NCBI RefSeq assembly: GCF_034377285.1
Contig: NZ_CP139715.1
Location: 4,696,001 to 4,760,000 of the forward strand
Reading direction: 5' to 3'
Source of the DNA: Thalassobaculum sp. OXR-137
Lineage (GTDB): Bacteria; Pseudomonadota; Alphaproteobacteria; Thalassobaculales; Thalassobaculaceae
DNA length: 64,000 bases
The translations under genes were made by a program, and so were the position numbers. The notes below the pieces were generated by a model, which saw only the letters and a program-made list of their open reading frames with translations, was not told the origin of the DNA and ran no database searches. The stretch's first letter is position 1; the number at the start of each line of letters is the position of its first letter. This document shows, in pieces, positions 2,104 to 18,856 of this stretch.

Positions 2104-2184
2104 CGGCGCGCGGATCGCGTCTTCCCTTCGCACCTGCAACATTCCATCATTGCGGATCGCCGCTTCCGATCCGGGATCACGCCC

Positions 2185-3150: not shown

Positions 3151-3153
3151 GCG

Positions 3154-3813: not shown

Positions 3814-3835
3814 GGCTTGCCTTTCCCCTGACCAC

Positions 3836-3885
3836 TTGTATTTTGCAACTGGATGACCCTAGCGAGACCAATTGCATTCTGCAAG
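3836..3885. promoter_or_regulatory. Paired direct repeats between GST and HxlR genes
   Basis: TTGTATTTTGCAAC (3836-3849) and TTGCATTCTGCAAG (3872-3885) match at 11 of 14 positions and start 36 bp apart. They lie between the two divergent genes if HxlR starts at 3907. They are likely operator copies for the HxlR protein; no binding data can be inferred. Confidence 0.45.
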
Positions 3886-3906
3886 CGGTCTGAGAAAGGA
3901 CGAGCA

Positions 3907-4407
3907 TTGGCGCAGGAACGGCGGTCCGGCTGCCCGATCAATCTGACCCTCGAACAGCTCGGCGACCGCTGGAGCCTGATCGTCATCCGCGACGTGATGT
4001 TCGGGAACCGGCGCAGCTATGGCGACCTGCTGAGCGGCAATCTGGAAGGGATTGCGTCCAACATTCTGGCGGACCGTCTGAAACGGCTGGCGGCCAGCGG
4101 CCTGCTCACCCGCGTTTCCGATCCGCGCCACCGGCAGAAACACATCTACAGCCTGACCGAAGCGGGCATTCAGCTCGTGCCGGTGCTGGCGCAGATGGCC
4201 GCCTGGGGACTGGCTCATACCAACCCCACGGCCGTGCTCTCGGCCCGCGCGAAGCTGCTGGTCGACGGTGGGCCGGAAGTGTGGAAGGCGCTGATGGACG
4301 AATTGCGCCACCTGCACCTTGGCGCGCCGAAGCCACAGCGTTCGGTGCTCGACGATGCCCGGGCGGCCTTTGCGGCTGCCCAGGCGCTGGAAGCCCCGGC
4401 GTCCTGA
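3907..4407 (+). CDS. HxlR-family transcriptional regulator
   Basis: A winged-helix HxlR protein of 166 residues from a TTG at 3907. The core is CPINLTLEQLGDRWSLIVIRDVMFG followed by a recognition region and the wing RHRQKHIYSLTEAG. An ATG at 3853 is in frame, but TTG is preferred: AAAGGA stands 6 nt before it, and the protein then begins just ahead of the conserved Cys of the family. The earlier ATG has no SD and would bury the second operator-like repeat in coding sequence. It is divergent from the GST gene and probably controls it. HxlR proteins often answer to aldehydes, quinones or redox stress. Confidence 0.85.
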   Translation: MAQERRSGCPINLTLEQLGDRWSLIVIRDVMFGNRRSYGDLLSGNLEGIASNILADRLKRLAASGLLTRVSDPRHRQKHIYSLTEAGIQLVPVLAQMAAWGLAHTNPTAVLSARAKLLVDGGPEVWKALMDELRHLHLGAPKPQRSVLDDARAAFAAAQALEAPAS

Positions 4408-4410
4408 GGC

Positions 4411-5142
4411 TCAGGCCGCCCGCGGAACCCGGCGGACGGGGCGCTTCACCGGGGTCGGGGTCTCGAACCGGCGCCAGCTGGCGATCAGACGACGGCCCGA
4501 GCGATAGACATGTTCGCGCGCCAGATGCTCGGCCCGCGCCCCTTGCCGGTCGGCGATCGCCTCGAAGATCTCCAGATGGTCGGAGTAGGACTCGATCAGC
4601 GTGTCCAGGTCGTGCCAGCGGAACTTGACCGCCTGCAACTGGGGGATCGACCGGGACTTGCCGATCAGGTCCCGCAGATGCCGGTTGTCCGCCGCCTCGA
4701 AGATCGCCTCGTGGAACGCCTCGTTCAGACGCGACCAGGAATCCCGGACGTCCTCGTTCCATTCCTGCGCGTCGCAGAGTGCCTCTGTCTCCGACAGGAC
4801 CTTGTGCAGGACGCCACGATGGTGATCGGGTAGACCGCGCTCGGCCACCGTGCGGGCGGCCAGCCCCTCCAGCACCGAACGGGCGGCATAGACGTCCTCC
4901 ACGTCCTGGACCGTATAGCGGCGGACGACGTAGCCGCTATTCGGCACGTAATCCAACAGCCCCTCGGCCGCCAGCACGCCCAGCGCGCCGCGTACGGGGG
5001 TCCGGGACACGCCGAGCGTGTTGGAAATATCCACTTCGTTCATCCGCGCGCCCGGCTTGTAGCTTCCGTCGAGCACGCCGTCCCGCAGTATGCGGGCGAC
5101 GGATTGTCCGCGTGTTGCCATCGACTGTTCCATCCCAACCAT
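4411..5142 (-). CDS. GntR-family (FadR/FCD) transcriptional regulator
   Basis: About 243 residues from the ATG at 5142; the frame is open to 5268, but the extra N-terminus is low-complexity Gly/Arg. The winged helix covers residues 10-75 (SVARILRDGVLDGSYKPG, TLGVSRTPVRGAL) and the helical FCD ligand domain follows, with the metal-type Asp and His residues in DSWSRLNEAFHEAIFEAADN and SYSDHLEIFEAI. FCD proteins sense small carboxylates or related metabolites. The gene is divergent from a DMT transporter whose start region carries two TGTATCCA-type sites, and the same motif recurs before both amidase modules and the peptide-type operon. It is the natural candidate regulator of all four. Later starts at 5133 or 5121 are possible. 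Confidence 0.85.
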   Translation of the reverse strand: MVGMEQSMATRGQSVARILRDGVLDGSYKPGARMNEVDISNTLGVSRTPVRGALGVLAAEGLLDYVPNSGYVVRRYTVQDVEDVYAARSVLEGLAARTVAERGLPDHHRGVLHKVLSETEALCDAQEWNEDVRDSWSRLNEAFHEAIFEAADNRHLRDLIGKSRSIPQLQAVKFRWHDLDTLIESYSDHLEIFEAIADRQGARAEHLAREHVYRSGRRLIASWRRFETPTPVKRPVRRVPRAA

Positions 5143-5303
5143 GGACCGTCCGTTGCCGGCGGCCCCATTTCTCCGACTTGAACGGGAGAGCCGCTCAGGC
5201 CGAAACCCGGCGCACGCCCCCGCGCCGGTCGTTGTACCGGCTCCCGTCATATACCATTTCCGGCCCACGTTAGGTAGCGTTCACACTGTTTCCGTCAAGG
5301 CAT

Positions 5304-5337
5304 ATTGCATCCAATGTCCAACGGGCGCATGGATACA
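5304..5337. promoter_or_regulatory. Two operator-like sites at the start of the DMT transporter gene
   Basis: ATTGCATCCAAT (5304-5315) and the inverted core TGGATACA (5330-5337) are variants of the ATTGTATCCAAT motif found at 6453, 16811 and 17153. A possible promoter (TTCACA near 5280, CATATT near 5301) would place them over the transcription start. ATTGGATCCAAT, one base different, is the known operator of the FadR-type regulator VanR. Confidence 0.55.
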
Positions 5338-6390
5338 CCGTCCAGCCGGAAAGCCGGCGCCCTCGCCAGAAAGCCCGTCTACGTGTCAAGCGACCCCCAG
5401 GTCAACGCCCGGCTCGACCCCAGTTCCTCGTCCCGTTTCTTCCATACTTTCAATGTATTGAAGACCAGCATCGAGCGTATTTCAGCACCGGGAAGAACCG
5501 CATTCGGCGCGCTGTCCCCCAATGCGCGCGGGGCCGTCTGGATCGTCGTCGCCGGCTTCTTCTTCACCCTCATGACCGCGTTGATCAAGCAGATCGGTGA
5601 TACAATCCCGGTGGTGCAGATCCTGATGTTCCGGCAGATCACCATGACCTGCACGGTCCTGCCGGTGCTGATCTCCGGCTATCCCGGAATTCTGAAGACC
5701 AATCATCTGGCCCTGCACCTGACCCGCGTCTGCATGGCGGTGATCGCCATGACCTGCGGATTCACCGCCTTCGTCCACCTGCCCCTGGCCGACGCGACGG
5801 CGCTCAGCTTCGCCAAGAGCCTGTTCGTCACCCTGCTCGCCCTGGTCTTCCTGCACGAAGTGGCGGGACCGAGGCGCTGGTTCGCCGTACTCCTGGGCTT
5901 CGTCGGCGTGCTGGTGATGGTCAAGCCCGACGCCGACGGCTTCAACATATACTCCCTGCTGGCTGTGGCCGGGGCCGCCGCGGCAGCCTGCGTCATGGTG
6001 ATCATCCGCAAGGTCTCGCAATACGACCGGCCGGTGACGATCCTGAGCTATCAGGCGATCCTGGTGGGGGTGATCATGATCGTGCCGACGGCCTATTTCT
6101 GGGTAACGCCGACCCTGGAGCAATGGGGCATCATGTTCGCCATCGGCCTGCTGTCGGTGATCGGCCAGCTCTGCAACATTCAGGGCTTCAAGGAAGGCGA
6201 GGCCTCCGCCGTGGCCCCGATGGACTATTCGCGACTGGTTTTCGCGACGATCCTGGGCTTTGTCATCTTCCTGGAACTTCCCGATGTTACGACCTTGGTG
6301 GGCGCGGCGCTGATCTGCGCTACCTCCTTCTACACGGTGCGCGCCGAACAGCGGGCCGCCCGCAAGCGCAAGGCCGAGACGCAGGCCTGA
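5329..6390 (+). CDS. DMT-superfamily (EamA) transporter
   Basis: An inner-membrane protein with two EamA repeats of five helices each: the first from about residue 65 (GAVWIVVAGFFFTLMTALIK), the second from about residue 205. The conserved LPLADATALSF segment sits at the end of helix 4 and APMDYSRLVF near the C-terminus. The start is uncertain. TTG 5305, ATG 5314 and ATG 5329 are all in frame and none has a good SD; 5329 is chosen because the earlier starts would lie in the operator-like sites. About 60 hydrophilic residues precede the first helix, which is long for the family. It shares its general motifs with the second DMT gene at 8190. Confidence 0.85.
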   Translation: MDTPSSRKAGALARKPVYVSSDPQVNARLDPSSSSRFFHTFNVLKTSIERISAPGRTAFGALSPNARGAVWIVVAGFFFTLMTALIKQIGDTIPVVQILMFRQITMTCTVLPVLISGYPGILKTNHLALHLTRVCMAVIAMTCGFTAFVHLPLADATALSFAKSLFVTLLALVFLHEVAGPRRWFAVLLGFVGVLVMVKPDADGFNIYSLLAVAGAAAAACVMVIIRKVSQYDRPVTILSYQAILVGVIMIVPTAYFWVTPTLEQWGIMFAIGLLSVIGQLCNIQGFKEGEASAVAPMDYSRLVFATILGFVIFLELPDVTTLVGAALICATSFYTVRAEQRAARKRKAETQA

Positions 6391-6450
6391 CCCGAACCGT
6401 CCTGATCGGTTGGGCCATGAACATCTGGACACAAACAGATGTCGATTTGC

Positions 6451-6466
6451 GAATTGTATCCAATTC
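6451..6466. promoter_or_regulatory. Operator-like dyad upstream of the first AtzG-amidase module
   Basis: GAATTG-TATC-CAATTC has perfect 6-bp arms and contains ATTGTATCCAAT at 6453-6464. It lies 77 bp before the small-subunit start codon and matches the sites at 16811 and 17153. Confidence 0.6.
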
Positions 6467-6542
6467 CTGCCGAGTCTACCGTTCTCTCTGACAGGGACCT
6501 TCGGTGCGCCAACGCGCGTGCCTTGCTTCAGGGAGACACACC

Positions 6543-6767
6543 ATGGATGACGACGCCCTCCGCCGTCAGTACGACGGTCTGATCGAACGCTCGGGCCTGA
6601 GCATTCCGCAGGACCGCGAGCAGACCATGTTCAATGCCTATAAGCAGGTACAGGCCTGGACCGACGTGGTGCGCAGCCGCAAGCCGGCGGCGCTGGAGCC
6701 CGCCAACGTCTTCGCCTACCAGACCGTCAGCCGTCTGTCCGACGGCGGGAAAGGCGGTGTGGTATGA
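6543..6767 (+). CDS. AtzG/GatC-like small amidase partner protein
   Basis: A 74-residue protein with an SD (GGGAG) before the ATG and a 4-base ATGA overlap with the amidase that follows. It has the layout of AtzG, the GatC-like partner of the 1-carboxybiuret hydrolase AtzE: a Gly-Leu-x-Ile-Pro helix start (SGLSIPQDREQ), a central helix with the W-T-D-V-V segment, and a C-terminal LEPANVFAYQ tail that would lie along the amidase. A paralogue with the same arrangement is at 17223. In the AtzE-AtzG pair the small protein is needed for a stable enzyme; a similar role here is inferred. Confidence 0.75.
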   Translation: MDDDALRRQYDGLIERSGLSIPQDREQTMFNAYKQVQAWTDVVRSRKPAALEPANVFAYQTVSRLSDGGKGGVV

Positions 6768-8185
6768 GCGCGCTGCTGGACCTGTCCATCGCCGAGCTCG
6801 GCCGCGGGTATCGCGACGGCTCGGTCTCCCCGGTCGCCGTGACCGAAGCCGCGCTTGAGCGGATCGAAGCGACCAACGACGCGCTCCACAGCTTCAACAC
6901 CGTCACCGCCGACCTGGCCCTGGCCCGCGCCGCCGCCGCCGAGACGGAACTGGCGGCCGGGACCGATCTTGGACCGATGCACGGTGTGCCGTTCGGGGTG
7001 AAGGACATCTACAACACCGAGGGCGTGCTCACGACCTGCCAGTCCCACCTGCGCTCCGAGTTCGTACCGGACGCCAATGCCCATTCCGTCCAGCTCCTGC
7101 TCGACGGCGGGGCGGTGATGCTGGGCAAATGCGCCACCATCGAGTTCGCCACCGGCGCCCCGAACGACGAGACCTTCTTCCCACCGGCGCGCAATCCCTG
7201 GAACCTCGAGCACATCCCCGGCGGCTCCTCCTCCGGCTCCGGGGCGGCGGTGGCCGTGGGCATCACGCGCATGGCACTCGGGTCCGACACCGGTGGCTCG
7301 ATCCGGGGTCCCGCCGCCCTGTGCGGCACGGTGGGCATGAAGCCGACCTATGGCCGGGTGAGCCGGCGGGGCGTGTTTCCGCTCTCCTACACCATGGACC
7401 ATTGCGGCCCGCTGAGCTGGAGTGTGGAGGATTCCGCGATCGCGCTGACCGTGATGGCGGGTTTCGACCCGCTGGACCCGGCCTGCGCCGATGTTCCGGT
7501 GCCGGACTACACCGCCGTCCTGAACAAAGGCGTGGCCGGCAAGAAGATCGCCTTCGTGGAGCACTGGATCGAGGAGGAAGGCACCGCCGACCCGGAAGCG
7601 GTCAAGGCCCTGCACACCGCCCTCGACGTCCTGCGCTCGGAAGGGGCCACGGTGGAGACCGTGCAACTCTCCCCCTACGACCTGTACCAGGCCTGCGCCC
7701 GCCTGCTGGTGCTGCCGGAATGCTACGCCATCCACGAGCACGACCTGATCGAGCGGCCGGAACTCTACGGCCGGCCGACCCGGGAGCGGCTGATGGCCGG
7801 CGCTTTCGTGCGCGGGTCCGACTATGTGGAGGCCCTGCGGGTGCGCCGCGAGCTGGCGATCGAGGTGAACAACGTGATCCTCGGCCAGTACGACGCCCTG
7901 ATCGCGCCGTGCTCGGTGGTCACCGCCGGCCGGTTCGACAGCCTGGGCGACGATCCGATGAAGCTGTCGGGCATGATGACCCAGCCGTTCAACGTCACCG
8001 GCAGCCCGGCCATGTCGGTCTGCACCGGCTACCACAGCAACGGTCTGCCGCTGTCCATGCAGATCGTCGGCAAGGCGTTCGACGAGGCGACGGTGTTCCA
8101 GGTCGGCGCCGCCTATGAGGCCGCCACCGAGTGGCGCAAGCACCGGCCGTCCATGCTGGCGGCGCGGGCCGCGGCGGCGGAGTGA
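6764..8185 (+). CDS. Amidase-signature enzyme, AtzE/GatA-like
   Basis: A 473-residue Ser-cisSer-Lys amidase. The triad is readable: Lys80 in GVKDIYNTEG, cis-Ser155 in the GGSSSGSGAAVA loop and nucleophile Ser179 in SDTGGSIRGPA. The conserved MKPTYGRVSRRGVFPL and MDHCGPL segments follow. It is translationally coupled to the AtzG-like small protein, which argues for a heteromeric enzyme rather than a stand-alone amidase. No GatB is nearby, so this is not the tRNA amidotransferase. The close paralogue at 17438 sits on the far side of the peptide-type ABC operon. The substrate is not determinable; a carboxylated urea, biuret or dicarboxylic amide would fit. Confidence 0.88.
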   Translation: MSALLDLSIAELGRGYRDGSVSPVAVTEAALERIEATNDALHSFNTVTADLALARAAAAETELAAGTDLGPMHGVPFGVKDIYNTEGVLTTCQSHLRSEFVPDANAHSVQLLLDGGAVMLGKCATIEFATGAPNDETFFPPARNPWNLEHIPGGSSSGSGAAVAVGITRMALGSDTGGSIRGPAALCGTVGMKPTYGRVSRRGVFPLSYTMDHCGPLSWSVEDSAIALTVMAGFDPLDPACADVPVPDYTAVLNKGVAGKKIAFVEHWIEEEGTADPEAVKALHTALDVLRSEGATVETVQLSPYDLYQACARLLVLPECYAIHEHDLIERPELYGRPTRERLMAGAFVRGSDYVEALRVRRELAIEVNNVILGQYDALIAPCSVVTAGRFDSLGDDPMKLSGMMTQPFNVTGSPAMSVCTGYHSNGLPLSMQIVGKAFDEATVFQVGAAYEAATEWRKHRPSMLAARAAAAE

Positions 8186-8189
8186 GGGA

Positions 8190-9107
8190 TCAGGCGGGGG
8201 GCGGCTTCGGCCGCCCTTCGCCGTGCCCCTCGCTGCGATAGACGACCCAGGTGCTGGCGAGCACCAGCGCGGACCCCGCCAGCACCACCGGCCCCGGCCA
8301 GTCGCCGAACGCGAAGAAGCCGATCAGCAGGGCCCAGATCATCTTCGAATAGTTCATCGGCGCGATGGTCGCCGCCGGCGCATGGAACAGGGCGCGGGTC
8401 GTCATGTACTGCGCCCCGCCCGAGGCCAGGCCCATGGCGATCAGCCCGGCGACCTGCAGCGGCGTCGGTGTCACCCACACCGACGGCAGCAGCGGGATCA
8501 CCATGGCCGAGGACAGGGCCATGAACAGGAAGACGATGGTCATGGTGCTGTCGTGCTTGCTCAGATGCCGCGCGACCAGGGTACCGAAGGCCGCGAGGAT
8601 CGTGCCGCCGAGGCTGTAGACGGCCCCCGCGCGGATCACGTCGCCGCTCGGCTGCACCATGAACATCACCCCGGCGAAGCCGACCGCGACGGCGGCCCAT
8701 TTCACCCACCCCACCCGCTCCCCCAGCAACGGCGCCGACAGCGCGGTGATGATCAGCGGCGACGCGAAGTTGATCGCCGTCGCGTCGGCCAGCGGCAGCA
8801 GCTCATAGCCGGCGAAGATCAGGCCGATGCCGCCTGACATGAGGGCGGCATGCAGCAGATGCCAGTGCGGCAGGCGGGTGCGCAGGGAGCGGCGGCGGGT
8901 GACGAACAGGATCACGATGCCCAGCGGCACCATGGCGAAGAAGTTCCGGAAGAACATGATCTGCACGACCGGAAACAGCTCGGTCTGCGCCTTGACCACG
9001 CCGTTCAGGATCGAGAACAGCAGAAGGCCGACCAGCATCAGCAGGATGCCGCGCCGGCCATCAGGCTGGACCGTATCCGCCGCCTGAGCGGGGTCGGCGG
9101 TCGCCAT
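8190..9107 (-). CDS. DMT-superfamily (EamA) transporter
   Basis: A 305-residue, ten-helix transporter starting at the ATG at 9107; the longer open frame to 9911 only overlaps the asparaginase gene. Two EamA repeats are clear, with ELLPLADATAINFASPL in the first and APMNYSKMIWALLIGFFAFGD in the second. It is the last gene of the minus-strand operon that starts with the solute-binding protein, 14 bp after the asparaginase gene. Its place suggests that it exports a reaction product or a toxic intermediate. It converges on the first amidase gene with 4 bp between the stops. Confidence 0.87.
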   Translation of the reverse strand: MATADPAQAADTVQPDGRRGILLMLVGLLLFSILNGVVKAQTELFPVVQIMFFRNFFAMVPLGIVILFVTRRRSLRTRLPHWHLLHAALMSGGIGLIFAGYELLPLADATAINFASPLIITALSAPLLGERVGWVKWAAVAVGFAGVMFMVQPSGDVIRAGAVYSLGGTILAAFGTLVARHLSKHDSTMTIVFLFMALSSAMVIPLLPSVWVTPTPLQVAGLIAMGLASGGAQYMTTRALFHAPAATIAPMNYSKMIWALLIGFFAFGDWPGPVVLAGSALVLASTWVVYRSEGHGEGRPKPPPA

Positions 9108-9121
9108 GAATAAGGACTCCG

Positions 9122-10120
9122 TCAGTAGGTGGCGAAGATCCGCTCGATCTCGGCCGGTTCGCTGGTCACCGCCAGGGCGAAGGCCAGCAGGATGCGGGCC
9201 TTCTGCGGGTTGAGGTTGTCGGCGATGAGGAAGCCGTTCTCCTTGAGCTTGGTGCTCTTGAAGGTGCGCCCGCTGCCGGCTCGGCTGGATTGAACCACGG
9301 TGATGCCCTTCTCCACCGCCTCCTTCAACGGCTCTTCGTCGCCAGGCCCGCAGAAACCCGGCGCGAAGCCGGCCGACACGATGCCCTTGGCCCCGGCCTC
9401 GATGAAGGCGCGGGCCGCCGTGCCGTCGGACCCGCAATAGGCATAGACGATGTCCACCCGAGGCAGGCTGTCCATCGTCCGGATGTCGAACTCGGTGTCC
9501 GGCGCATGGCGGCGCAGCGGCTTGCGGTAGAAGGCGACCGCATCTCCGTCCGCATGGCCGAGGCAGCCGAAATCGGGGCTGCGGAAGGTCTGCATCCGGT
9601 AGGTGGAGGTCTTGGTCACCTCGCGGGCGGACTGGATCTCGTCGTTGAGCAGGGTCATCACGCCCATGCCTCTGGCCTGCGGGCTCGCCGCCGTGCGGAT
9701 GCCGTTGACCAGGTTGAACCCGGCATCGGTCGACAGCGCGCTGGACGGCCGCTGGGAGCCGATCACCACCACCGGCAGGTCGGTCTTGACCGTCAGATGG
9801 AGCACGTAGGCCGTCTCCTCCAGCGACGCGGTGCCGTGGGTGACCACGAAGCCGGCGAGGTCCGGATTGGCCGCCGCCACCTCGTCGATCTTGAGCACCA
9901 GCTCCTTCCATTCGGCGAAGCCCATGGACGGGCTGGGAATGGCGCGGAACGGCACCACCACCACATCCGCCACCAGATTCACCTCGGGGAATAGCTCCAG
10001 GATCTTATCGACCTCGAGCATGGTGTTGTTGGCCCCGTAGTCGAGGATATCGAGGGGACCCTTGCCGATCGACGCGATGGTGCCGCCGGTGCCGATCACT
10101 GCGACCTTCGGCTTGCTCAT
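9122..10120 (-). CDS. L-asparaginase / glutaminase-family amidohydrolase
   Basis: A 332-residue type-I/II asparaginase fold from the ATG at 10120. The first catalytic Thr is in the N-terminal GTGGTIAS motif (residues 11-18) and the second in the THGTASLEETAY motif near 110-121; the substrate-binding SQRPSSALSTDAGFNL segment follows. There is no signal peptide, so it acts in the cytoplasm. It overlaps the isochorismatase-like gene by 4 bases. Its position next to two amidase modules and an importer points to a small amide other than, or besides, asparagine, but the motifs alone do not distinguish this. Confidence 0.85.
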   Translation of the reverse strand: MSKPKVAVIGTGGTIASIGKGPLDILDYGANNTMLEVDKILELFPEVNLVADVVVVPFRAIPSPSMGFAEWKELVLKIDEVAAANPDLAGFVVTHGTASLEETAYVLHLTVKTDLPVVVIGSQRPSSALSTDAGFNLVNGIRTAASPQARGMGVMTLLNDEIQSAREVTKTSTYRMQTFRSPDFGCLGHADGDAVAFYRKPLRRHAPDTEFDIRTMDSLPRVDIVYAYCGSDGTAARAFIEAGAKGIVSAGFAPGFCGPGDEEPLKEAVEKGITVVQSSRAGSGRTFKSTKLKENGFLIADNLNPQKARILLAFALAVTSEPAEIERIFATY

Positions 10121-10830
10121 TCGGCGGCCACCTGCGCGACGCCGGCATTCTTGTGCAGGATGTCGACCAACTCGTCGGTGCTGAAGATATCGCCGAAGGT
10201 CAGGTAGAAATTGGACAGCGCCGCGTTGTGCTCCATGTCGGTCACCGCGGCGTTGCCGTCGGTCACCATCACGACCTTGTAGTTCAGCATCATCGCATCG
10301 CGTGCCGAGGACTCGCAGCACACATTGGTCACCGTGCCGGTGATCAGCAGGGTGTCGATGCCCTCGGCCTGCAGGATTGCGTGGAGCTCGGAGGAGCCCT
10401 CCACGAAGGCGGAGTAGCGGTTCTTCAGGACTTTGCGGTCGCCCTCCTTCACGTCGAGCTCGGCCCAGAGCTGGTGCCCGATCCCGCCCGGCGACATGGA
10501 CTCGATCCGCTTGGCGACCTTGGCCGGCGGGGTCATCGCGTGCAGGTTCGACCAGCTCTCCAGACAGGTCTCGTCATGGGTGTTCTGGATCCAGTAGACC
10601 TGCCCGCCGGTGGCGCGCACCGCCTCCGCCAGCTTGTTGACGTTCGGCACGATGGCCCTGGCCTGGACGCAGAGCGCATGGGCCACGTCGTCCATCATGA
10701 AGCCGTTCTGCAGGTCGATGACGATCAGCGCGGTCTTCGACGGGTCCAGATTGGCGTGCGGATGGGGCGTGCCCAGGCGGGCGGTCACCGCGTCGATGAC
10801 CCGCTGCGGTATCTCGGTCTTGTTCATCAT
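10117..10830 (-). CDS. Isochorismatase-like cysteine hydrolase
   Basis: A 237-residue alpha/beta hydrolase of the isochorismatase/N-carbamoylsarcosine amidase superfamily, with an SD (GGGAGG) six bases ahead of the ATG. The Asp-Lys-Cys triad is intact: Asp39 in VIDLQNGF, Lys136 in LKNRYSAF and Cys171 in VTNVCCES, with the cis-peptide VTN ahead of the Cys. Relatives hydrolyse amide, ureide or carbamoyl groups. It is 49 bp downstream of an ABC ATPase gene in one apparent operon and overlaps the asparaginase gene, so it probably acts on the same imported compound. Confidence 0.87.
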   Translation of the reverse strand: MMNKTEIPQRVIDAVTARLGTPHPHANLDPSKTALIVIDLQNGFMMDDVAHALCVQARAIVPNVNKLAEAVRATGGQVYWIQNTHDETCLESWSNLHAMTPPAKVAKRIESMSPGGIGHQLWAELDVKEGDRKVLKNRYSAFVEGSSELHAILQAEGIDTLLITGTVTNVCCESSARDAMMLNYKVVMVTDGNAAVTDMEHNAALSNFYLTFGDIFSTDELVDILHKNAGVAQVAAE

Positions 10831-10879
10831 GTCGGCCTCCCTGACGGCGGAATTCCTGATGGGGATTATTCGGTTGGCA

Positions 10880-11896
10880 TCATTCGGCGGGGACGAGTTC
10901 CTTCTGGCGCACGGTGTCCGGCGCCACCTTGATGCAGCGCGCCATGCGGCCGGCATCGAAGATCACCTCCGGCGGCAAGGCGGCGGTGCAGGCGGGCTCG
11001 GCGTATTTGCAGCGCGGGGCGAAGGCACAGCCCGGCGGCATGGCACGCAGGTCGGGCGGAGACCCGGGGATCGCCTCGATATCCTTGCCGCGCATGTTGC
11101 CGTGCACGGTGGAGGACAGCATGCCCTGGGTGTAGGGGTGCTTGGGATTGCGCAGCACATCCGTCACCGTCCCGGTCTCCACGATCCGGCCGGCATACAT
11201 GACGGCCACCCGGTCGGCGATCTCCGCCGCCACGCCCAGGTCGTGGGTCACGAAGATCACCCCCATGCCCATCTCCGCCTGGATCTTGCGCAGCAGAATC
11301 AGCACCTGGATCTGCACCGTGGCGTCCAGCGCCGTGGTCGGCTCGTCGGCCAGCAGCAGCTTCGGGCGGCAGGACAGGGCCATGGCGATCATCGCGCGCT
11401 GACGCAGGCCGCCGGACAGCTCGTGCGGGAAGGCTTTCAGCCGCCGCTCGGCCGAGGGAACCTTCACCAGTTCCAGCAGCTCCAGCGCCCGTTCCATGCC
11501 CTGGTCATAAGTGCAGCCCTCGTGGCGGCGGACGGTCTCGGCGATCTGGTGGCCCACGGAGTAGACCGGGTCCAGCGCCGTCATCGGCTCCTGGAAGATC
11601 ATGGAGACGAGGCCGCCGCGCAGGTCGGACAGCTCCTTGCCCTTGAGCGACAGCACGTCCTTGCCGTCGACCTCCACGGTGCCGGTGATACGGGTGCGGC
11701 GCTCGGGCAGCAGCCGCATCAGGGCGCGCATGCTGACGCTCTTGCCCGACCCGGACTCGCCGATGATGCAGAGCACCTCGCCCGGATCGAGGGTCAGGTT
11801 CACGTCGTTCACCGCGCTCACCGTGCTCTCGCGGGTCACGAACTTCACGTTGAGGTCCTGAAGGCGGACCAGCGGGGTCTTGGCCATGTCGGTCAT
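10880..11896 (-). CDS. Peptide/nickel-type ABC importer ATPase (DppD/OppD-like)
   Basis: A 338-residue ATPase from the ATG at 11896 (SD GGAGGA). Walker A is GESGSGKS, the signature is LSGGLRQR with Gly-Leu where most have Gly-Gln, and Walker B is [12 protein letters not shown]. The C-terminal oligopeptide-transporter extension carries the Cys-containing [16 protein letters not shown] motif that binds a 4Fe-4S cluster in DppD-type subunits. It pairs with the ATPase directly upstream in the same operon. Confidence 0.92.
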
Positions 11897-11912
11897 CGCG
11901 CTGTCCTCCTGC

Positions 11913-13052
11913 TCAATCGCCGCCGGCCATGGCGGTGAGAGACGGTTTCGGGGTCGGCGGAACCGGCACGCCGGCGGCGGCGGCGGAGTGGCCGGAATTC
12001 GGCACGAACATGTGGCAGGCCGTGACATGGGCCTCCGCCGACAACCATTCGCCCAGGATCGGCCGCTCGATCTCGCAGATCTTCTCCGCGTGCTTGCAGC
12101 GGGTGCGGAAGCGGCAGCCCGAGGGCGGGTTGATCGGGTTCGGCGGATCGCCGACCAGCGGCGGCTCCTCGATCCGGTCCTCCGGATCCATGGACAGCCG
12201 CGAGGCCAGCAGGGCCTGGGTGTAGGGATGCTTGGGGTTCTCGTAGATCTCGTCCACCGGACCGATCTCGACCACCTCGCCCAGATACATCACCAGGACC
12301 CGGTCGCTGACATACTGGACGACGTTCAGGTCGTGGGAGATGAAGACGTAGGTCAGGTTGAAATGCTGCTTGAGATAGCGCAGCAGGTTCAGCACCTGGG
12401 CTTCCACCGACTTGTCGAGGGCGGAGACCGCCTCGTCCAGGATCACCACGCGGGGCTCCAGCACCAGGGCGCGGGCGATGTTCACCCGCTGCTTCTGGCC
12501 GCCGGACAGCTCGTGCGGATAGCGCGGACCGAACAGGTTCGGATCCAGCCCCACCTTGGTCAGCAGTTCGCGCGCCGCCTCCTTGGCTTCCGCCTCGCTC
12601 GCCCCGTGCACCCTCTTGCCGTAGGAGATCGAGTCCTCGATGGGCATGCGGGGGTTCAGCGACGAGTAACTGTCCTGGAACACCATCTGCATCAGCCGGC
12701 GCATGTCGCGCACCAGCAGCCCGTCCTTCTCCCCGACCGCGTCGCCGTCGAAGATCAGCTCGCCGCTGTCCGGCTCGATCAGGTGCATCAGCAGCCGGGC
12801 GAGGGTCGACTTGCCGCAACCGGACTCGCCGACCACGCCCAGGGTCTCGCCCTTCATCACCGTGAAGCTCACCCCGTCCACCGCTCGGACATGGCCGACG
12901 GTGCGGTTCAATACGCCGCCGGTAATGGGAAAGTGCTTCTTCAGCTCCCGGGCGATCAGCATCGGCTGACGTTCGCCGCCGCGGTCGCGGGCGTCCTTGC
13001 GGTCGACCGGGCTCAGCGCCGGCGCCTTTCGGGTCTCGTCCGTCATGGTCAT
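11913..13052 (-). CDS. Peptide/nickel-type ABC importer ATPase (DppF/OppF-like)
   Basis: A 379-residue ATPase: Walker A GESGCGKST, Q-loop MVFQDSYSSLNPR, signature LSGGQKQRV, Walker B VVILDEAVSALD, and the C-terminal GCRFRTRCKHAEKIC cysteine motif. The end carries an unusual Ala/Pro-rich tail of about 30 residues. It is the first of the two ATPases in transcription order, 11 bp after the permease gene; this order (F-type before D-type) is the reverse of the commoner dppDF order. Confidence 0.92.
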   Translation of the reverse strand: MTMTDETRKAPALSPVDRKDARDRGGERQPMLIARELKKHFPITGGVLNRTVGHVRAVDGVSFTVMKGETLGVVGESGCGKSTLARLLMHLIEPDSGELIFDGDAVGEKDGLLVRDMRRLMQMVFQDSYSSLNPRMPIEDSISYGKRVHGASEAEAKEAARELLTKVGLDPNLFGPRYPHELSGGQKQRVNIARALVLEPRVVILDEAVSALDKSVEAQVLNLLRYLKQHFNLTYVFISHDLNVVQYVSDRVLVMYLGEVVEIGPVDEIYENPKHPYTQALLASRLSMDPEDRIEEPPLVGDPPNPINPPSGCRFRTRCKHAEKICEIERPILGEWLSAEAHVTACHMFVPNSGHSAAAAGVPVPPTPKPSLTAMAGGD

Positions 13053-13063
13053 CGGCTTGCTCC

Positions 13064-13966
13064 CTACAGTCGGACATCCATGGCCGCGCGCAGTCCGTCG
13101 CTGACCAGGTTGAAGCAGATGGAGGTGATCAGGATCGCCACGCCCGGGATCGCGCAGACCAGCGGGTTGATGTAGATCGCCTGGCGCAGGGTGTTCAGCA
13201 TGAGGCCCCAGTCCGGCTCCGGCGGGGTGACGCCGAGACCGAGGAAGGACAGGCCCGAAGCGAGCAGGATGCTCACGCTCACCATGCTGGAGGAGTAGAC
13301 CAGGATCGGCCCCAGCACGTTGCCCAGGATATGGACGCGGATGATGCTGAGGGTGCCCGCCCCTGTGGCCCGCGCCGCCTCGACGAAATCGAGGTTGCGG
13401 ACCTGGGAGGTGGCCGTCTCCGCCACCCGGCACAGCGGCGGGATGAAGACCAGGGTCAGGGACAGCATGCCGTTGACGACGCCGCCGCCCATCGCGCCGG
13501 AAATGGCGACCGCGAGCAGGATCGACGGGAAGGCATAGAACACGTCCACCATGCGCATGATCATCATGTTGGTCCGCCCGCCGACGAAGCCGGCGACGAT
13601 GCCGAGCGTGCCGCCGATCAGGGTCGCCAGCAGCACCGGAACGATGCCCATGGTGAGCGAGATCCGCCCGCCATAGAGCAGGCGCGAGAGGATATCGCGC
13701 CCCAACTCGTCGGTGCCCAGGATGAAGTCCTTGTAGCCGATCGGCTTCAGACGGTTGATCAGGCTGCTCTGGTAGGGATCCATCGGCGCCAGCAGCGGCG
13801 CGAAGATCGCCGATAGAAGGATCAGCAGGACGACCGCCCCGAAGAACAGGGTCAGATAGTCGTAGCGCAGCCGGTATCCGACATTCTGCCAGTAGCTGCG
13901 CACCCGGACCGCCGGCGCCCCCTGGGCGGCGACGGCATCGGCTTCGGACATGGTGATGTTGGCCAT
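13064..13966 (-). CDS. Peptide/nickel-type ABC importer permease (DppC-like)
   Basis: A 300-residue inner-membrane permease with the DppC-type N-terminal OppC segment (about residues 20-80), the LGTDELGRDILSRLLYGGRISL motif and the EAA-loop EAARATGAGTLSIIRVHILGN that docks the ATPase. It lies 19 bp after the DppB-like gene. Confidence 0.92.
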   Translation of the reverse strand: MANITMSEADAVAAQGAPAVRVRSYWQNVGYRLRYDYLTLFFGAVVLLILLSAIFAPLLAPMDPYQSSLINRLKPIGYKDFILGTDELGRDILSRLLYGGRISLTMGIVPVLLATLIGGTLGIVAGFVGGRTNMMIMRMVDVFYAFPSILLAVAISGAMGGGVVNGMLSLTLVFIPPLCRVAETATSQVRNLDFVEAARATGAGTLSIIRVHILGNVLGPILVYSSSMVSVSILLASGLSFLGLGVTPPEPDWGLMLNTLRQAIYINPLVCAIPGVAILITSICFNLVSDGLRAAMDVRL

Positions 13967-13985
13967 GGCTCTTCCCTCCTTCCGC

Positions 13986-14942
13986 TCAGCTGCGCTTCAG
14001 GCGCGGGTCGACCATCGTCTGCAGCAGATCGATGACCAGGTTCGTGGCGACGAAGATCATGGCGAGCACCAGGATCGTGCCCTGCAGCACCGGCAGGTCG
14101 CGGGTCAGGATCGCCTTGTTCAGCAGGAACCCGGTGCCGGGCCAGGTGAAGATCGTCTCGACCAGGATCGACCCGCCCATCAGGTAGCCGAACTGCAGAC
14201 CCATGACGGCAAGCACCTGGGGCATGCAGTTCTTGATGACGTGGAAAAGGATCTCGCGCTCGTTCAGCCCCTTGGCCCGCAGGGTCTCCACGAAGTCCTG
14301 GTTCAGGATCTCGGCGACCGCCGCCCGGGTCGTGCGGGTGATGATGCCGATCGGGATCATCGACAGGGTGACCATCGGCATCAGCAGATGGCGGAAGTGG
14401 TTCCATTCCCAGAAATTGAAGTCGTCGGAGCCGCGCGGCCCCATCCCGGTCGCCGGCAGCACGTTCAGCTCGACGGCGAAGATGATCACCAGCACGATGC
14501 CGAGCCAGTAGTTGGGAATGCTGACGCCGATCACGGCGATGCCGGTGACGCCGCGATCGACCGGACCGCCGGCGTGATAGCCGGCCACAAGACCCATGAC
14601 GAAGGCCAGGCTGAAGGCGACGATCACCGCGCCGGCGGCGAGCAGGATGGTGTTGCCGAGAGCCTTGAACAACTCGTCGGTGACCGCCCGGCCGGTGGCG
14701 ATGGAGTTGCCTAGATCGCCGGTCAGGACCTTGCCCAGCCAAATCGCGTATTGGACGGGGATCGGCTTGTCGAAGCCGTAGGCCTTCTTGACCATGGCGA
14801 TGGTCTCGGCGCTGGCGTCCTCGGGAAGCAGGGTGTTCAGGGGATCGCCCGGCGCGATGTAGACCAGCGCGAAGCAGACGATGCTGACACCGAGCGCAAT
14901 GGGGATCGCGTAAAGCAGGCGGCGCAGAATATAGGCGGTCAT
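13986..14942 (-). CDS. Peptide/nickel-type ABC importer permease (DppB-like)
   Basis: A 318-residue permease with the N-terminal ILRRLLYAIPIALGVSIVCF helix, the PGDPLNTLLPEDAS periplasmic loop and the EAA motif ETLRAKGLNEREILFHVIKN. It follows the solute-binding-protein gene after a 92-bp gap that holds a strong hairpin. Confidence 0.92.
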   Translation of the reverse strand: MTAYILRRLLYAIPIALGVSIVCFALVYIAPGDPLNTLLPEDASAETIAMVKKAYGFDKPIPVQYAIWLGKVLTGDLGNSIATGRAVTDELFKALGNTILLAAGAVIVAFSLAFVMGLVAGYHAGGPVDRGVTGIAVIGVSIPNYWLGIVLVIIFAVELNVLPATGMGPRGSDDFNFWEWNHFRHLLMPMVTLSMIPIGIITRTTRAAVAEILNQDFVETLRAKGLNEREILFHVIKNCMPQVLAVMGLQFGYLMGGSILVETIFTWPGTGFLLNKAILTRDLPVLQGTILVLAMIFVATNLVIDLLQTMVDPRLKRS

Positions 14943-14982
14943 CTGGGGGTCCCTTCAGCTCGGAGATGCCTCTGGCGAGGGA

Positions 14983-15019
14983 GGTCCGGCCGGCCCCGGG
15001 TGGGCGGGCCGGCCGGACC
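14983..15019 (-). terminator. Hairpin between solute-binding protein and permease genes
   Basis: Perfect 14-bp GC-rich arms (14983-14996 and 15006-15019) with a 9-nt loop and no T-tract. It probably attenuates or stabilises the mRNA so that the binding protein is made in excess over the membrane subunits. Confidence 0.6.
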
Positions 15020-15034
15020 GGACTTGGTCGGGGC

Positions 15035-16621
15035 TTACTCGACCACGATCGGGGTGAGGTCCTGGAACCAGCTCTGGGCCTGGACAAAACCCTTCACGTT
15101 CGGGGCGATGGCGCGCGGGTTGACGTCATGGGCGACCATCAGCATCGTCGCGTCGTCCACCATCAACTCGTGCAGCTTGGTCAGTTTCTCCATCCGCGTC
15201 TTCGGATCGAAGGAGGCGTAGATCTCGTCGATCACGGTATCGACCTCGGGGTTGGTATAGTGCCCCCAGTTCGAGCCCTTCGGCGCATGCTGCTTGCTGT
15301 AGACGTGGCGGATCAGGGCGCTGAACGGATCCTGCAGGGCACGGCTGATGTTGATGCCGTCGATCTGCGGGTTCTTCTCACGACCCGGACGGCCGACATC
15401 GAGCAGCGCGTTCCAGTCCATGACGTCCAGGGTGGTGTCGAAGCCGACCGCGTCGAGCTGGCTCTTCACCAGTTCGTTCATCGGCAACGGCTGCATCTGA
15501 CCGGAACCCGAGGTGGAGATCGCCAGGGTGATCTTGCACGGGTAGCAGCCGGCTTCCTTGAGCAGCGCGGTCGCCTTCTCCGGGTCGTACTCGTAGACGT
15601 ATTCGGGCTTGCCGTAGTACGGGGTCGACGGCGGCACGATGCCGTAGCCCTCGATCATGTAGCCGCCGAGCAGTTCCTTGAACTCAGGCCGGTTCAGCGC
15701 GTAGTTGGCGGCCCGCCGAACCTTCACGTCCTTGAAGGCGCCATCGACGAAGTTGAGCTGGTACGACCAGTTGTGCGGATACGGCGCCGTGACGATGTTC
15801 ATGCCGGCGGATTCCAGACGCGGAATGGTGTCCGGCGAGGGCGCCTCGATGAAGTCGACCTGGCCCGACAGCAGGGCGGCGGCTCGGGTGGTCGCCTCCG
15901 GCATCGGGATCAGGACCAGACGGTCATGCTTCGGGATGCGGTTCGGGTCCCAGTAGTCGGGATTCTTGACCAGCTCCAGGCGCTCCTGCGCCACCATGCT
16001 CGAGAACTTGTACGGGCCGGTACCCGACGGATCGACCGAATACTTCTCGTAGTCGTTGCCGAGCTCGGTGAGCTTGCAGCGGCTGATCATGAACCAGTAG
16101 GAAAGCTGGTAGGGGAACAGCGCATCCGGCTGCTTGGTGATGAAGGCGACCGTGTGGTCGTCGATCACCTCGACCTTGTCGATGATGCCGGTTCGGTTGC
16201 GGATGTCGGCGAACTGCTTGGCGTTGAACTGCGGCGCCTTGTCGTCGGAGACGCGGGCGAAGTTCCAGGCCACGTCCTCGGCGACGAAATCGCAGCCGTC
16301 ATGCCACTTCACGCCTTCGCGCAGCTTGACGATCCAGCGGGTGTGGTCGTTGGGATCGATGTCCCACGAGGTCGCCAGACCCGGCTTGATATCGGCCGCG
16401 GTCTCGCCCTGGGACAGGTCCCACAGCGTCAGCGTGTCATAGAGGTTGTAGCCGACGAAACGGTAGCCCTCGAACCCCTGGTCGGGCTGGCCGATGGTGA
16501 TCGGAATGTCGCCTGCCGTCATGGCGACGCGAAGCACGGACTCCGCCGACGCGGGAAGCGCCGAAAGGGCCAGCCCGGCAGACACGGCGAGCGCCGATGC
16601 CAGTGTCTTGATGTTACGCAT
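15035..16621 (-). CDS. Peptide/nickel-type ABC importer solute-binding protein (SBP_bac_5)
   Basis: A 528-residue periplasmic protein with a Sec signal peptide (MRNIKTLASALAVSAGLAL, cleavage after ASA near residue 26). The family-5 signature follows: VKWHDGCDFVAEDVAWNF, DPSGTGPYKFSS and the ANYALNRPEF helix. It has a Cys pair (CYPCK, near residue 360) that could form a disulfide. It is the first gene of the eight-gene operon ending at 8190. An ATTGTATCCAAT dyad lies about 190 bp upstream. The ligand is unknown; the downstream hydrolases suggest an amide, a short peptide or a ureide. Confidence 0.92.
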   Translation of the reverse strand: MRNIKTLASALAVSAGLALSALPASAESVLRVAMTAGDIPITIGQPDQGFEGYRFVGYNLYDTLTLWDLSQGETAADIKPGLATSWDIDPNDHTRWIVKLREGVKWHDGCDFVAEDVAWNFARVSDDKAPQFNAKQFADIRNRTGIIDKVEVIDDHTVAFITKQPDALFPYQLSYWFMISRCKLTELGNDYEKYSVDPSGTGPYKFSSMVAQERLELVKNPDYWDPNRIPKHDRLVLIPMPEATTRAAALLSGQVDFIEAPSPDTIPRLESAGMNIVTAPYPHNWSYQLNFVDGAFKDVKVRRAANYALNRPEFKELLGGYMIEGYGIVPPSTPYYGKPEYVYEYDPEKATALLKEAGCYPCKITLAISTSGSGQMQPLPMNELVKSQLDAVGFDTTLDVMDWNALLDVGRPGREKNPQIDGINISRALQDPFSALIRHVYSKQHAPKGSNWGHYTNPEVDTVIDEIYASFDPKTRMEKLTKLHELMVDDATMLMVAHDVNPRAIAPNVKGFVQAQSWFQDLTPIVVE

Positions 16622-16808
16622 TGTGAAGCCTCCTTGCGTGTACCCGCCGCGCCATTCGCACCGCCCCGAGACCGGTTCGACCGCCCGTGAAGGTGGCCTC
16701 CGGCCTTTCTTCGGCGCCGTCCCGCCTGCCCGCTCCCCGGGAGCCGGAACACACGATCGACCCGCGACATGGCTTCAGGGTTTTGCAATCGGCATGCCGA
16801 AATTCGCC

Positions 16809-16824
16809 AAATTGTATCCAATTT
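16809..16824. promoter_or_regulatory. Operator-like dyad upstream of the peptide-type ABC operon
   Basis: AAATTG-TATC-CAATTT has perfect 6-bp arms and contains ATTGTATCCAAT at 16811-16822, identical over 12 bases to the site at 6453. Confidence 0.6.
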
Positions 16825-17152
16825 TTATCGAGGCGGCCGAACTGGATATGAAGACGATAGATAAAACCGAAGAAATTCAATCCTATGTCCCGAAGTTCTC
16901 CCTTATGGACGAGATGATGAGGAGCCGGACGCGCCGTCAAGATCAGCATCGCCGGCCATCAAACCACATGCTGCATTGCACTATTGTGCACAGTTAGAAT
17001 CCATTGATTGCGCAATTGATGCTCACGCTCTCGATTTCCGGAAAGCCAGGATCGATCCGTATTTCATATGAAGCTGAAATCATTGCGAGTCTGGAATCGG
17101 TGTTCGCCGCTAATTTGTGCACTGCAAAATGACTGGACGGAGATACCGATTT

Positions 17153-17164
17153 TTTGGATACAAT
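17153..17164. promoter_or_regulatory. Operator-like site upstream of the second AtzG-amidase module
   Basis: TTTGGATACAAT is the reverse complement of ATTGTATCCAAA and matches the motif at 11 of 12 positions. It lies 58 bp before the small-subunit start codon. Confidence 0.55.
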
Positions 17165-17222
17165 AAGGAGGCGCGCCCGGTTTCGCCTGCGCGCAAGCCA
17201 GCCATTTGCCAGGGGTTCCGCG

Positions 17223-17441
17223 ATGTCCAGCGACGATCGAACCGCGTCCATGCGCCAGGCCTTCGAGGCCATGACCGCCCTCAACGGTCTCACCCTGCCG
17301 TCCGAGCGGGTGGAGACGATCTACGAAGGCTTCGTCGGCCTGCAGGCGATGGTCGCCGACCTGCGCCGGCCGCGCACCGCCGCGGCCGAGCCCGCCGGCA
17401 TCTTCGTTCCCACCACCATTACCCGGAGTGCCGCGCCATGA
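17223..17441 (+). CDS. AtzG/GatC-like small amidase partner protein (second copy)
   Basis: A 72-residue protein with the same plan as the one at 6543: a LNGLTLPSERVETIYEGF helix, a central M-V-A-D-L segment and a C-terminal AEPAGIFVP tail. Its stop overlaps the amidase start (ATGA). The ATG at 17223 has an SD (AGGGG) ten bases upstream. An upstream in-frame ATG at 17154 would place the operator inside the gene and is rejected. Confidence 0.75.
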   Translation: MSSDDRTASMRQAFEAMTALNGLTLPSERVETIYEGFVGLQAMVADLRRPRTAAAEPAGIFVPTTITRSAAP

Positions 17442-18856
17442 CCGAACCGCTGGAAAGCCTGTCCATCGCCGAACTGGGTGCGAAGCTGCGCGACGGGTCG
17501 CTGACCTCCGCCAAGATCACCGAACATTGCCTCACGCGCATCGCCGATCTCGATCCGGCCCTGAACGCCTTCATCACGGTGACCGGTGATCGGGCCATGC
17601 AGGATGCCGCCAAGGCCGACAAGGAACTGGCCGAGGGGACCGACCGCGGCCCGATGCACGGCATCCCCTATGGGCTGAAGGACATCTACGACACCGCCGG
17701 GATCCGCACGACCTGCCATTCCAAGCTGCGCGAGGACGTGATCCCGGCGACCGACAGCGTCTGCGCCGAGAAGCTGGTGAAGGCCGGCGGCGTGCTGCTT
17801 GGCAAGCTGTCGACCCACGAGTTCGCCTTCGGCGGCCCCTCCTTCGACCTGCCCTTCCCGCCTGCACGCAATCCCTGGAACCGCGACCACGGCCCGGGCG
17901 GATCGTCCAGCGGCTCGGGTGCCGCGGTGGCCATGGGCATGATGCGCACGGCCATGGGCTCCGACACCGGCGGCTCGATCCGCGGGCCGGCGGCCTATTG
18001 CGGCGTCATCGGCATCAAGCCGACCTATGGCCTGGTGAGCCGGCGCGGCGTGTTCCCGCTGTCCTACACCATGGATCATTGCGGACCGCTGTCGAAGACG
18101 GTGGAGGACGCGGCCATCACCCTGCAGGCGGTCGCGGGCTACGACGCCATCGACCCGGCCAGCGCCGACGTCCCGATCCCGGATTTCCGGGCGTCCCTCA
18201 ATGCCGGCGTGAAGGGTATGAAGATCGGCCTGCTGCGCTCGTTCTATGCGGATGCAGAGGGCATGGCGCCGGAATGCAGCGCGGCGATCGACACCGCCTG
18301 CGAAACCCTGCGCAGCCTCGGCGCCGAGGTCGAGGACGTCCAGGGCGCCTCACCCTTCACCCAGTACAATTCCTGCGGACGGGTGATCCTGCTGGCCGAG
18401 GCCTACGCGATCCACGAGGAGGATCTGAAGACCCGCCCGCTCGATTTCGGCCAGCTCACCATGGAGCGGATCATGCTCGGCGCCTATATCTCGGCCGCCG
18501 ATCTGGTCCAAGCCCAGCGCCTGCGTCGGGAACTGAGCCAGGAGGTGAACAGCATGTTCCTGAAGCAGTACGACGTGCTGCTCGCCCCCTCGTCCATGAC
18601 CCCGGCCCCGCGGATCGACGCCCCCCAGAAGGGCTTCCCGCTGGCCTGGCCGATGCAGACCATGCCGTTCAACGTGACCGGCAACCCGGCCATGTCGATC
18701 CCCATCGGCTTCAGCGACAGCGGCCTGCCCCTGTCGATGCAGATCATCGGCGGCTACTACGACGAGGCGACCGTGTTCCGGGTCGGCCAGGCCTACGAGG
18801 CGGCCACCCAGTGGCACCTGAAATGGCCGGAGCCGGCCCTGGTGGAAGCCGCCTGA
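17438..18856 (+). CDS. Amidase-signature enzyme, AtzE/GatA-like (second copy)
   Basis: A 472-residue paralogue of the amidase at 6764. The triad is Lys81 (YGLKDIYDTAG), cis-Ser156 (GGSSSGSGAAVAMG) and Ser180 (SDTGGSIRGPAAY). The two copies share long identical runs around the active site (IKPTYG-VSRRGVFPLSYTMDHCGPL) but differ in the C-terminal substrate-shaping half, so they may prefer different amides. It is coupled to its own AtzG-like partner and divergent from the ABC operon, probably sharing its regulator. No GatB is present. Confidence 0.88.
   Translation: MTEPLESLSIAELGAKLRDGSLTSAKITEHCLTRIADLDPALNAFITVTGDRAMQDAAKADKELAEGTDRGPMHGIPYGLKDIYDTAGIRTTCHSKLREDVIPATDSVCAEKLVKAGGVLLGKLSTHEFAFGGPSFDLPFPPARNPWNRDHGPGGSSSGSGAAVAMGMMRTAMGSDTGGSIRGPAAYCGVIGIKPTYGLVSRRGVFPLSYTMDHCGPLSKTVEDAAITLQAVAGYDAIDPASADVPIPDFRASLNAGVKGMKIGLLRSFYADAEGMAPECSAAIDTACETLRSLGAEVEDVQGASPFTQYNSCGRVILLAEAYAIHEEDLKTRPLDFGQLTMERIMLGAYISAADLVQAQRLRRELSQEVNSMFLKQYDVLLAPSSMTPAPRIDAPQKGFPLAWPMQTMPFNVTGNPAMSIPIGFSDSGLPLSMQIIGGYYDEATVFRVGQAYEAATQWHLKWPEPALVEAA

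Follow-up and report, generated by a model that had tools for sequence, protein, structure and literature searches.

Which regulator, and which signals, control a cluster of predicted amidase, hydrolase and transporter genes whose units all begin with the same short motif? The question is raised by a 64,000-nucleotide stretch of the Thalassobaculum sp. OXR-137 genome (contig NZ_CP139715.1, positions 4,696,001 to 4,760,000; hereafter the window, in whose coordinates positions are given). Here, the original prediction had seen the 12-mer ATTGTATCCAAT or variants of it at the heads of four local transcription units, and had proposed a GntR amide-scavenging regulon. Two of these units consist of a small gene and an amidase gene, one begins with the gene of an EamA-type transporter (DMT1), and one is an eight-gene minus-strand unit that encodes a periplasmic substrate-binding protein (SBP), OppB- and OppC-type permeases, two ABC ATPases, a RutB-like hydrolase, an asparaginase and a second DMT transporter. 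Our analysis indicates that the sites are very probably operators of the linked GntR protein and form one local regulon, with sigma54 and PhaR inputs on the same promoters. The predicted operators and their candidate binder are as follows.

5304-5315, plus strand: predicted operator site 1, ATTGCATCCAAT, one mismatch, between the GntR and DMT1 genes
6453-6464, plus strand: predicted operator site 2, ATTGTATCCAAT exact, before the small subunit-amidase 1 pair
16811-16822, plus strand: predicted operator site 3, ATTGTATCCAAT exact, directly upstream of the −24 element of a putative sigma54 promoter, at about −38 to −49
17153-17164, minus strand: predicted operator site 4, ATTGTATCCAAA, one mismatch; the plus strand contains TACAAT
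4411-5142, minus strand: GntR regulator with an FCD domain, VanR group, candidate binder of the four sites (Pfam GntR 46.7 bits, FCD 70.5 bits)

A scan of the window returned the two exact copies at 6453 and 16811, the inverted 11/12 copy at 17153 and the variant at 5304, as had been claimed, and both exact copies lie within wider dyads (GAATTG-TATC-CAATTC and AAATTG-TATC-CAATTT). Each of these copies heads one of the four units named in the original prediction, including the eight-gene unit. A further variant proposed at 5330 (CATGGATACACC) turned out to be no copy: it has four mismatches, falls outside the two-mismatch set, and is unconserved in three same-genus loci (L030-L032). When up to two mismatches to ATTGTATCCAAT were allowed, the four sites were the only places found in the window (seven rows, both strands counted); in 100 dinucleotide shuffles of the window, the number of rows averaged 0.71 and never exceeded five. 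With at most one mismatch, 116 of 120 letter permutations of the 12-mer were found nowhere in the window, three were found at one place and one at two places, compared to four places for the motif itself. In the whole 5.65-Mb genome, the exact 12-mer occurs twice, both times inside the cluster; 12 places have at most one mismatch, four of them in the cluster, while a reversed control pattern gave none. The wider form WTTGNATCCAAW, which is the form shown by relatives, occurs at five places in the genome, four of them in the cluster, so the many scattered copies that were to count against the regulon are not there. The motif is confirmed, and its occurrence here far exceeds what chance would give. 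A chance origin, or a mobile repeat, might be suspected, as 12-mers are short; however, the shuffles, permutations and whole-genome counts, and the footprints described below, oppose this explanation, which we consider refuted and give practically no weight.

The fifth place (locus L011, G000:C1:5087432-5087443) carries ATTGGATCCAAT, which we take to be the VanR operator, flanked by a BenE-type transporter gene and by a GntR-FCD gene distinct from that of the cluster. It resembles a VanR-type operator that belongs to a different regulator, and the earlier comparison of the motif with the VanR operator was apt. The ATTGGATCCAAT string is also present in a vanillate-induced Caulobacter construct, according to PMC6538847. 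The GntR-FCD/BenE locus represents a second FCD circuit in the genome, one base off the cluster motif.

Sixty-one genomes were searched for the regulator; ten of them, including that of the window, carry the GntR protein at 65% identity or more (orthologs are 65-92% identical), and the nine other neighbourhoods were fetched. Named records that hold the GntR are those of Thalassobaculum litoreum DSM 18839, Nisaea nitritireducens DSM 19540 and related metagenome bins. Seven loci (L030-L036) have all four units in the same order, and in all eight loci with four units (the window and these Thalassobaculum/Nisaea relatives) the GntR gene is linked to the cluster and all four sites are found at the same places. 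In L038, the contig stops before unit 4, and the three sites possible there are present. In the alignment of relatives, the four sites are conserved footprints between diverged flanks. Among 37 copies, counted at the four places only (extra sites of relatives were excluded), positions 1-4 and 6-11 are invariant (10/12), position 5 is variable, and either T or A stands at position 12. With the window included, the place of site 1 matches ATTGNATCCAAT in 9/9 loci that hold it, site 2 is identical in 9/9 and site 3 in 10/10 loci, and the terminal A of site 4 is present in 9/9. Site 1 of L036 is identical to ATTGGATCCAAT.

The form ATTGTATCCAAW occurs exactly three times per genome, always in the cluster, in all nine genomes with the large cluster; in G024 (69% complete), the three copies are sites 1-3, and the contig stops before site 4. 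The count also covered ten genomes without the ortholog: of the eight family genomes of ordinary size among them, seven contain no ATTGTATCCAAW and one, G023, contains a single copy, while the two others, of 1.5 Mb, have one (G001) and two (G005) copies. Thus, across the genomes compared, the motif tracks the linked GntR gene. Both small genomes are assigned to the genus of the 5.6-Mb window genome.

Some relatives have additional sites. An extra copy, ATTGGATGCAAT, is located between sites 3 and 4 of genome G020 (L064:9216-9227), and L033, L034 and L036 have a weaker second site, TTTGCATCCAAA, which precedes site 2 by 29 bp. The spacing between sites 3 and 4 is 336-348 bp in eight loci and 315 bp in L064; with such variation, loop phasing between these two sites seems unlikely.

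The gene at 4411, previously described as FadR-type, codes for a protein with a GntR winged helix and an FCD domain, of the VanR group. Its closest solved relative by sequence is Atu1419. According to PMC7797058, Atu1419 is a repressor that binds ATGTATACAT, with Arg45 contacting G3 and Thr46 contacting A5, and its zinc ligands are Asn137 and three histidines. Residues R33, E36, S46, R47, T48 and R51 of the linked GntR, which align with DNA-contact residues of Atu1419, are invariant in 10/10 orthologs, and the same is true for N140, H144, H189 and H211, which align with Atu1419 N137, H141, H192 and H214 and conform to the N/D-H-H-H pattern of metal ligands. Every base contacted by Atu1419 (G3/C8 and A5/T6 of ATGTATACAT) has its counterpart at an invariant position of TTGNATCCAA. 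Moreover, among 18 distant relatives with 28-38% identity (these are not independent, as several come from one genus), 14 have TGTATACA next to the GntR gene, and the family to which the linked protein belongs seems to read TG-N-AT-N-CA. The presence of TGTATACA beside the genes of distant relatives, together with the conserved Atu1419 contacts, suggests that the four sites are naturally read by the linked GntR, which is the best candidate to bind them. In nine of the distant relatives (L047, L049, L050, L053-L058), two copies of TGTATACA lie exactly 62 bp apart before the gene, as if one tetramer might hold both.

The sites might instead be bound by another FCD-type GntR of the same genome, either the one beside the BenE gene or a 36%-identical paralog, in which case the linked GntR would have other targets. 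FCD operators are alike, the separate GntR-FCD gene adjoins ATTGGATCCAAT, and GntR paralogs at 36-38% identity do exist. However, the sites and the linked GntR gene are present or absent together in the genomes compared, site 1 lies within the regulator's own promoter gap in 9/9 loci, and G030 has kept a 37% paralog yet has neither the ortholog nor the motif. We consider binding by a different FCD protein improbable. The same operator-like site is found before each unit and is conserved together with the regulator gene, the arrangement of a local regulon; this part of the original prediction is supported by the sequence.

Two further elements, both overlooked earlier, lie between the divergent units 3 and 4. 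The first belongs to the eight-gene unit.

16784-16799, minus strand: predicted sigma54 −24/−12 element of the eight-gene unit, CGGCATGCCGATTGCA, with a predicted start site near 16773

Sigma54 promoters have a GG-N10-GC core within TGGCAC/TTGC-like boxes. A sequence of this pattern, YGGCAYRNNNNTTGC, keeps a constant spacing (within 2 bp) to site 3 in 10/10 loci, while none of 3000 letter-permuted patterns occurred in every one of them. Since such sequences are not rare in the genome, it is conservation that carries the claim. The rpoN gene was found in 4/4 genomes searched, and ntrC in 5/5. Between sites 3 and 4, 8/8 aligned loci share a TGCACA sequence (16983-17000, near 16986), which takes the form TGTGCACA in 6/8 and is possibly an activator site of the sigma54 promoter. 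L133, a locus from another family, has a related importer and amidase/RutB-like cluster, with two RutB-like genes in tandem and no GntR motif. Its 503-bp segment examined (7037-7540) contains two divergent GG-N10-GC sequences, out of three in 19.9 kb; judging from this one locus, nitrogen control may be the older layer.

The location of site 3, upstream of the −24 element and not over it, would suit a GntR that is an activator or dual regulator and that assists the sigma54 polymerase or an enhancer protein at this site rather than blocking it. On the other hand, Atu1419, the nearest relative with a solved structure, acts as a repressor, and site 4 has a −10-like TACAAT on the coding strand, which fits a block. 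We regard an activating or dual role as rather unlikely, and repression by the linked GntR as the preferred reading.

The second element precedes site 4, at the head of the amidase 2 unit.

17112-17132, plus strand: predicted PhaR-type box, AATTTGTGCACTGCAAAATGA, the only match to the Sinorhizobium meliloti 21-mer consensus in 64 kb

The PhaR 21-mer consensus of S. meliloti and its phaP1 site are published (PMC12542648), and the core of the box is one base from the phaP1-site core given there. The core, TTGTGCANNGCAMAA, precedes site 4 in 9/9 loci that have site 4, the full 21-mer does so in 8/9 (not in L030), and the box starts 39-42 bp before site 4. Of 12 phasin genes in five genomes, ten are preceded by the 21-mer, which lies 211-395 bp ahead of the phasin domain; the remaining two are the weakest phasin matches. 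The phaR gene was found in nine of the ten genomes with the GntR, that of the window included. The reference list of PMC12542648 includes a title on AniA-negative and NtrC-positive control of one small RNA, a case that could serve as a precedent for a combination of PhaR and nitrogen control.

Several observations speak against the regulon as drawn here. L037 of genome G020 holds the GntR gene but no site; the GntR gene is accompanied by the end part of an asparaginase gene, and the amidase and Opp relatives in this locus are all distant. Units 3 and 4 with sites 3 and 4, and one further copy between, are on another contig of G020 (L064). The motif copy of G023 has no cluster gene nearby. No consensus sigma70 promoters were found in a scan of the unit heads (5100-6600 and 16600-17300), so the position of sites 1, 2 and 4 relative to start sites is a guess. 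The sigma54 pattern with terminal W occurs ten times in the genome, with five occurrences of a reversed control, and is weak by itself; no NtrC-type TGCAC-N5..7-GTGCA was consistently found between sites 3 and 4. As for PhaR, the box is present in the L032 locus of G004, a genome in which no phaR gene was found, and the PhaR-type 15-mer is present in all 14 genomes searched; of its five occurrences in the window's genome, two fall within open reading frames, and the core is seen within such frames in, e.g., L078 and L081. The box could then be coincidental or read by another protein, leaving the amidase 2 unit outside control by polyhydroxybutyrate (PHB). This appears doubtful, since the box keeps the same distance to site 4 (within 3 bp) in 9/9 loci, none of 3000 permuted PhaR patterns was found anywhere in those regions, and the 21-mer, which stands before most of the phasin genes, resembles the S. 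meliloti phaP1 site.

In the favoured model, the linked GntR would control its own gene and DMT1 through site 1, the small subunit-amidase 1 pair through site 2, the eight-gene importer/hydrolase unit through site 3, and the small subunit-amidase 2 pair through site 4. It would most likely repress these genes until a cluster-derived ligand, perhaps a carboxylate at the metal site, releases it. The eight-gene unit would be read by sigma54 RNA polymerase and would need an activator such as NtrC, while amidase 2, with its PhaR box, would be held down as long as the cell has no PHB. The cluster would thus be switched on by the combination of available amide, nitrogen shortage and stored carbon. 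We lean, by a narrow measure, toward a scheme in which three signals meet at these promoters, i.e., substrate through the GntR repressor, nitrogen shortage through sigma54, and carbon reserves through PhaR as the PHB sensor, and in which PhaR directly controls organic-nitrogen hydrolysis, so that PHB accumulation licenses the search for nitrogen. Among the results listed in our literature searches, there was no description of this regulon, its members or the three-way wiring, which is not proof of absence. The analysis turns an anonymous cluster into a defined and testable regulon with exact operators, and yields clear-cut variants of the VanR-group operator; a functional PhaR box would be a direct wire from carbon storage to the use of organic nitrogen.

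The genes that this regulon would include are listed below.

5383-6390, plus strand: DMT1, EamA-type transporter (Pfam EamA); the GTG start at 5383 was guessed from where conservation begins
6543-6767, plus strand: small 74-aa protein, placed like AtzG/GatC; 4-nt overlap with amidase 1; conserved in eight other loci with the unit
6764-8185, plus strand: amidase 1, AtzE/GatA-like (Pfam Amidase 328 bits; AtzE model 316.7 bits)
8190-9086, minus strand: DMT2, EamA-type transporter (library profile matches)
9122-10123, minus strand: type II-like asparaginase (Pfam Asparaginase N and C; asnASE_II 291.5 bits, cut-off 314.3); start inferred, MSKPKVAV
10117-10788, minus strand: RutB-like isochorismatase-fold hydrolase (RutB model 94.5 bits; closest solved sequence RutB)
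10880-12028, minus strand: ABC ATPase 1, OppD/DppD type
11913-13061, minus strand: ABC ATPase 2, oligopeptide type; start approximate
13064-13966, minus strand: permease, OppC type
13986-14942, minus strand: permease, OppB type
15035-16621, minus strand: periplasmic binding protein, SBP_bac_5 (Pfam 268 bits; closest solved sequences are heme- and dipeptide-binding proteins)
17223-17441, plus strand: second small subunit-like protein, 72 aa, overlapping amidase 2
17438-18856, plus strand: amidase 2, AtzE/GatA-like (Pfam Amidase 372.8 bits; AtzE model 315.3 bits)

No terminators were found in 5100-6600 and 16600-17300. Neither amidase reaches the curated AtzE cut-off of 425.75, and the product of 10117-10788 stays below the curated RutB cut-off of 377.95. 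With both amidases and the hydrolase below curated cut-offs, the substrate of the cluster is probably an amide or ureide, and the amide scavenging of the original prediction would suit a cluster that probably serves to scavenge nitrogen in these marine bacteria. The AtzG label given earlier to the small proteins was not borne out: neither the 74-aa nor the 72-aa protein matched a Pfam model or solved AtzG in the libraries searched.

A search for RutB-like proteins in 240 genomes of the class returned 23 genomes with a match at E 1e-45, and eight such loci (L126-L133) were fetched. L133 has relatives of the Opp genes (54-63%), of the SBP (43%) and of the amidase (~50%); in L128 and L129, the relatives found are of the DMT and amidase kinds (31-35%); L127 and L130 show only weaker ABC or SBP relatives, and L126, L131 and L132 none at all. 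Both TTGNATNCAA and TGTATACA are absent from all eight loci.

Beside the GntR gene, window positions 1255-4407 hold amidohydrolase, CN-hydrolase and HxlR-type regulator genes. Among the same-genus loci L030-L032, the CN-hydrolase is found in 3/3 and the HxlR-type regulator in 2/3; neither is found in L033-L038 as fetched, which are short on that side. A 69% relative of the window CN-hydrolase (2185-3150) is located directly behind amidase 2 in L064, which hints that the CN-hydrolase belongs with the cluster.

The components of the predicted regulon can be compared to several known systems. The VanR operator ATTGGATCCAAT is one base from the main motif, whereas the genes controlled differ. RutB, a ureidoacrylate amidohydrolase, is both the nearest curated model and the nearest solved sequence for the 10117-10788 product, yet the score is 94.5 bits against a cut-off of 377.95. 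In the AtzE-AtzG system of Pseudomonas sp. ADP (PMC6219798), a small gene likewise overlaps that of an AtzE/GatA-like amidase near ABC transporter genes; in contrast, the amidases described here score below AtzE cut-offs and their small partners match no library searched. The sequence at 17112-17132 fits the 21-mer of the S. meliloti PhaR/AniA regulon, and phasin genes here carry the box too; the word amidase is absent from the main text of PMC12542648 as available, while the putative target here is an amide-hydrolase unit. The closest parallel to the regulator is Atu1419 of Agrobacterium fabrum (VanR group, PDB 6z74; PMC7797058). The linked GntR has DNA-contact residues and zinc ligands in common with it, and TTGNATCCAA has the contacted bases of its operator ATGTATACAT. 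The predicted operator of the cluster differs in being asymmetric, with T and C at places 4 and 7 of the 10-mer, and stands before different genes. Atu1419 is a local repressor with several operators, to which the GntR of the cluster may be likened, and a local GntR regulon of the VanR group is a known kind of system.

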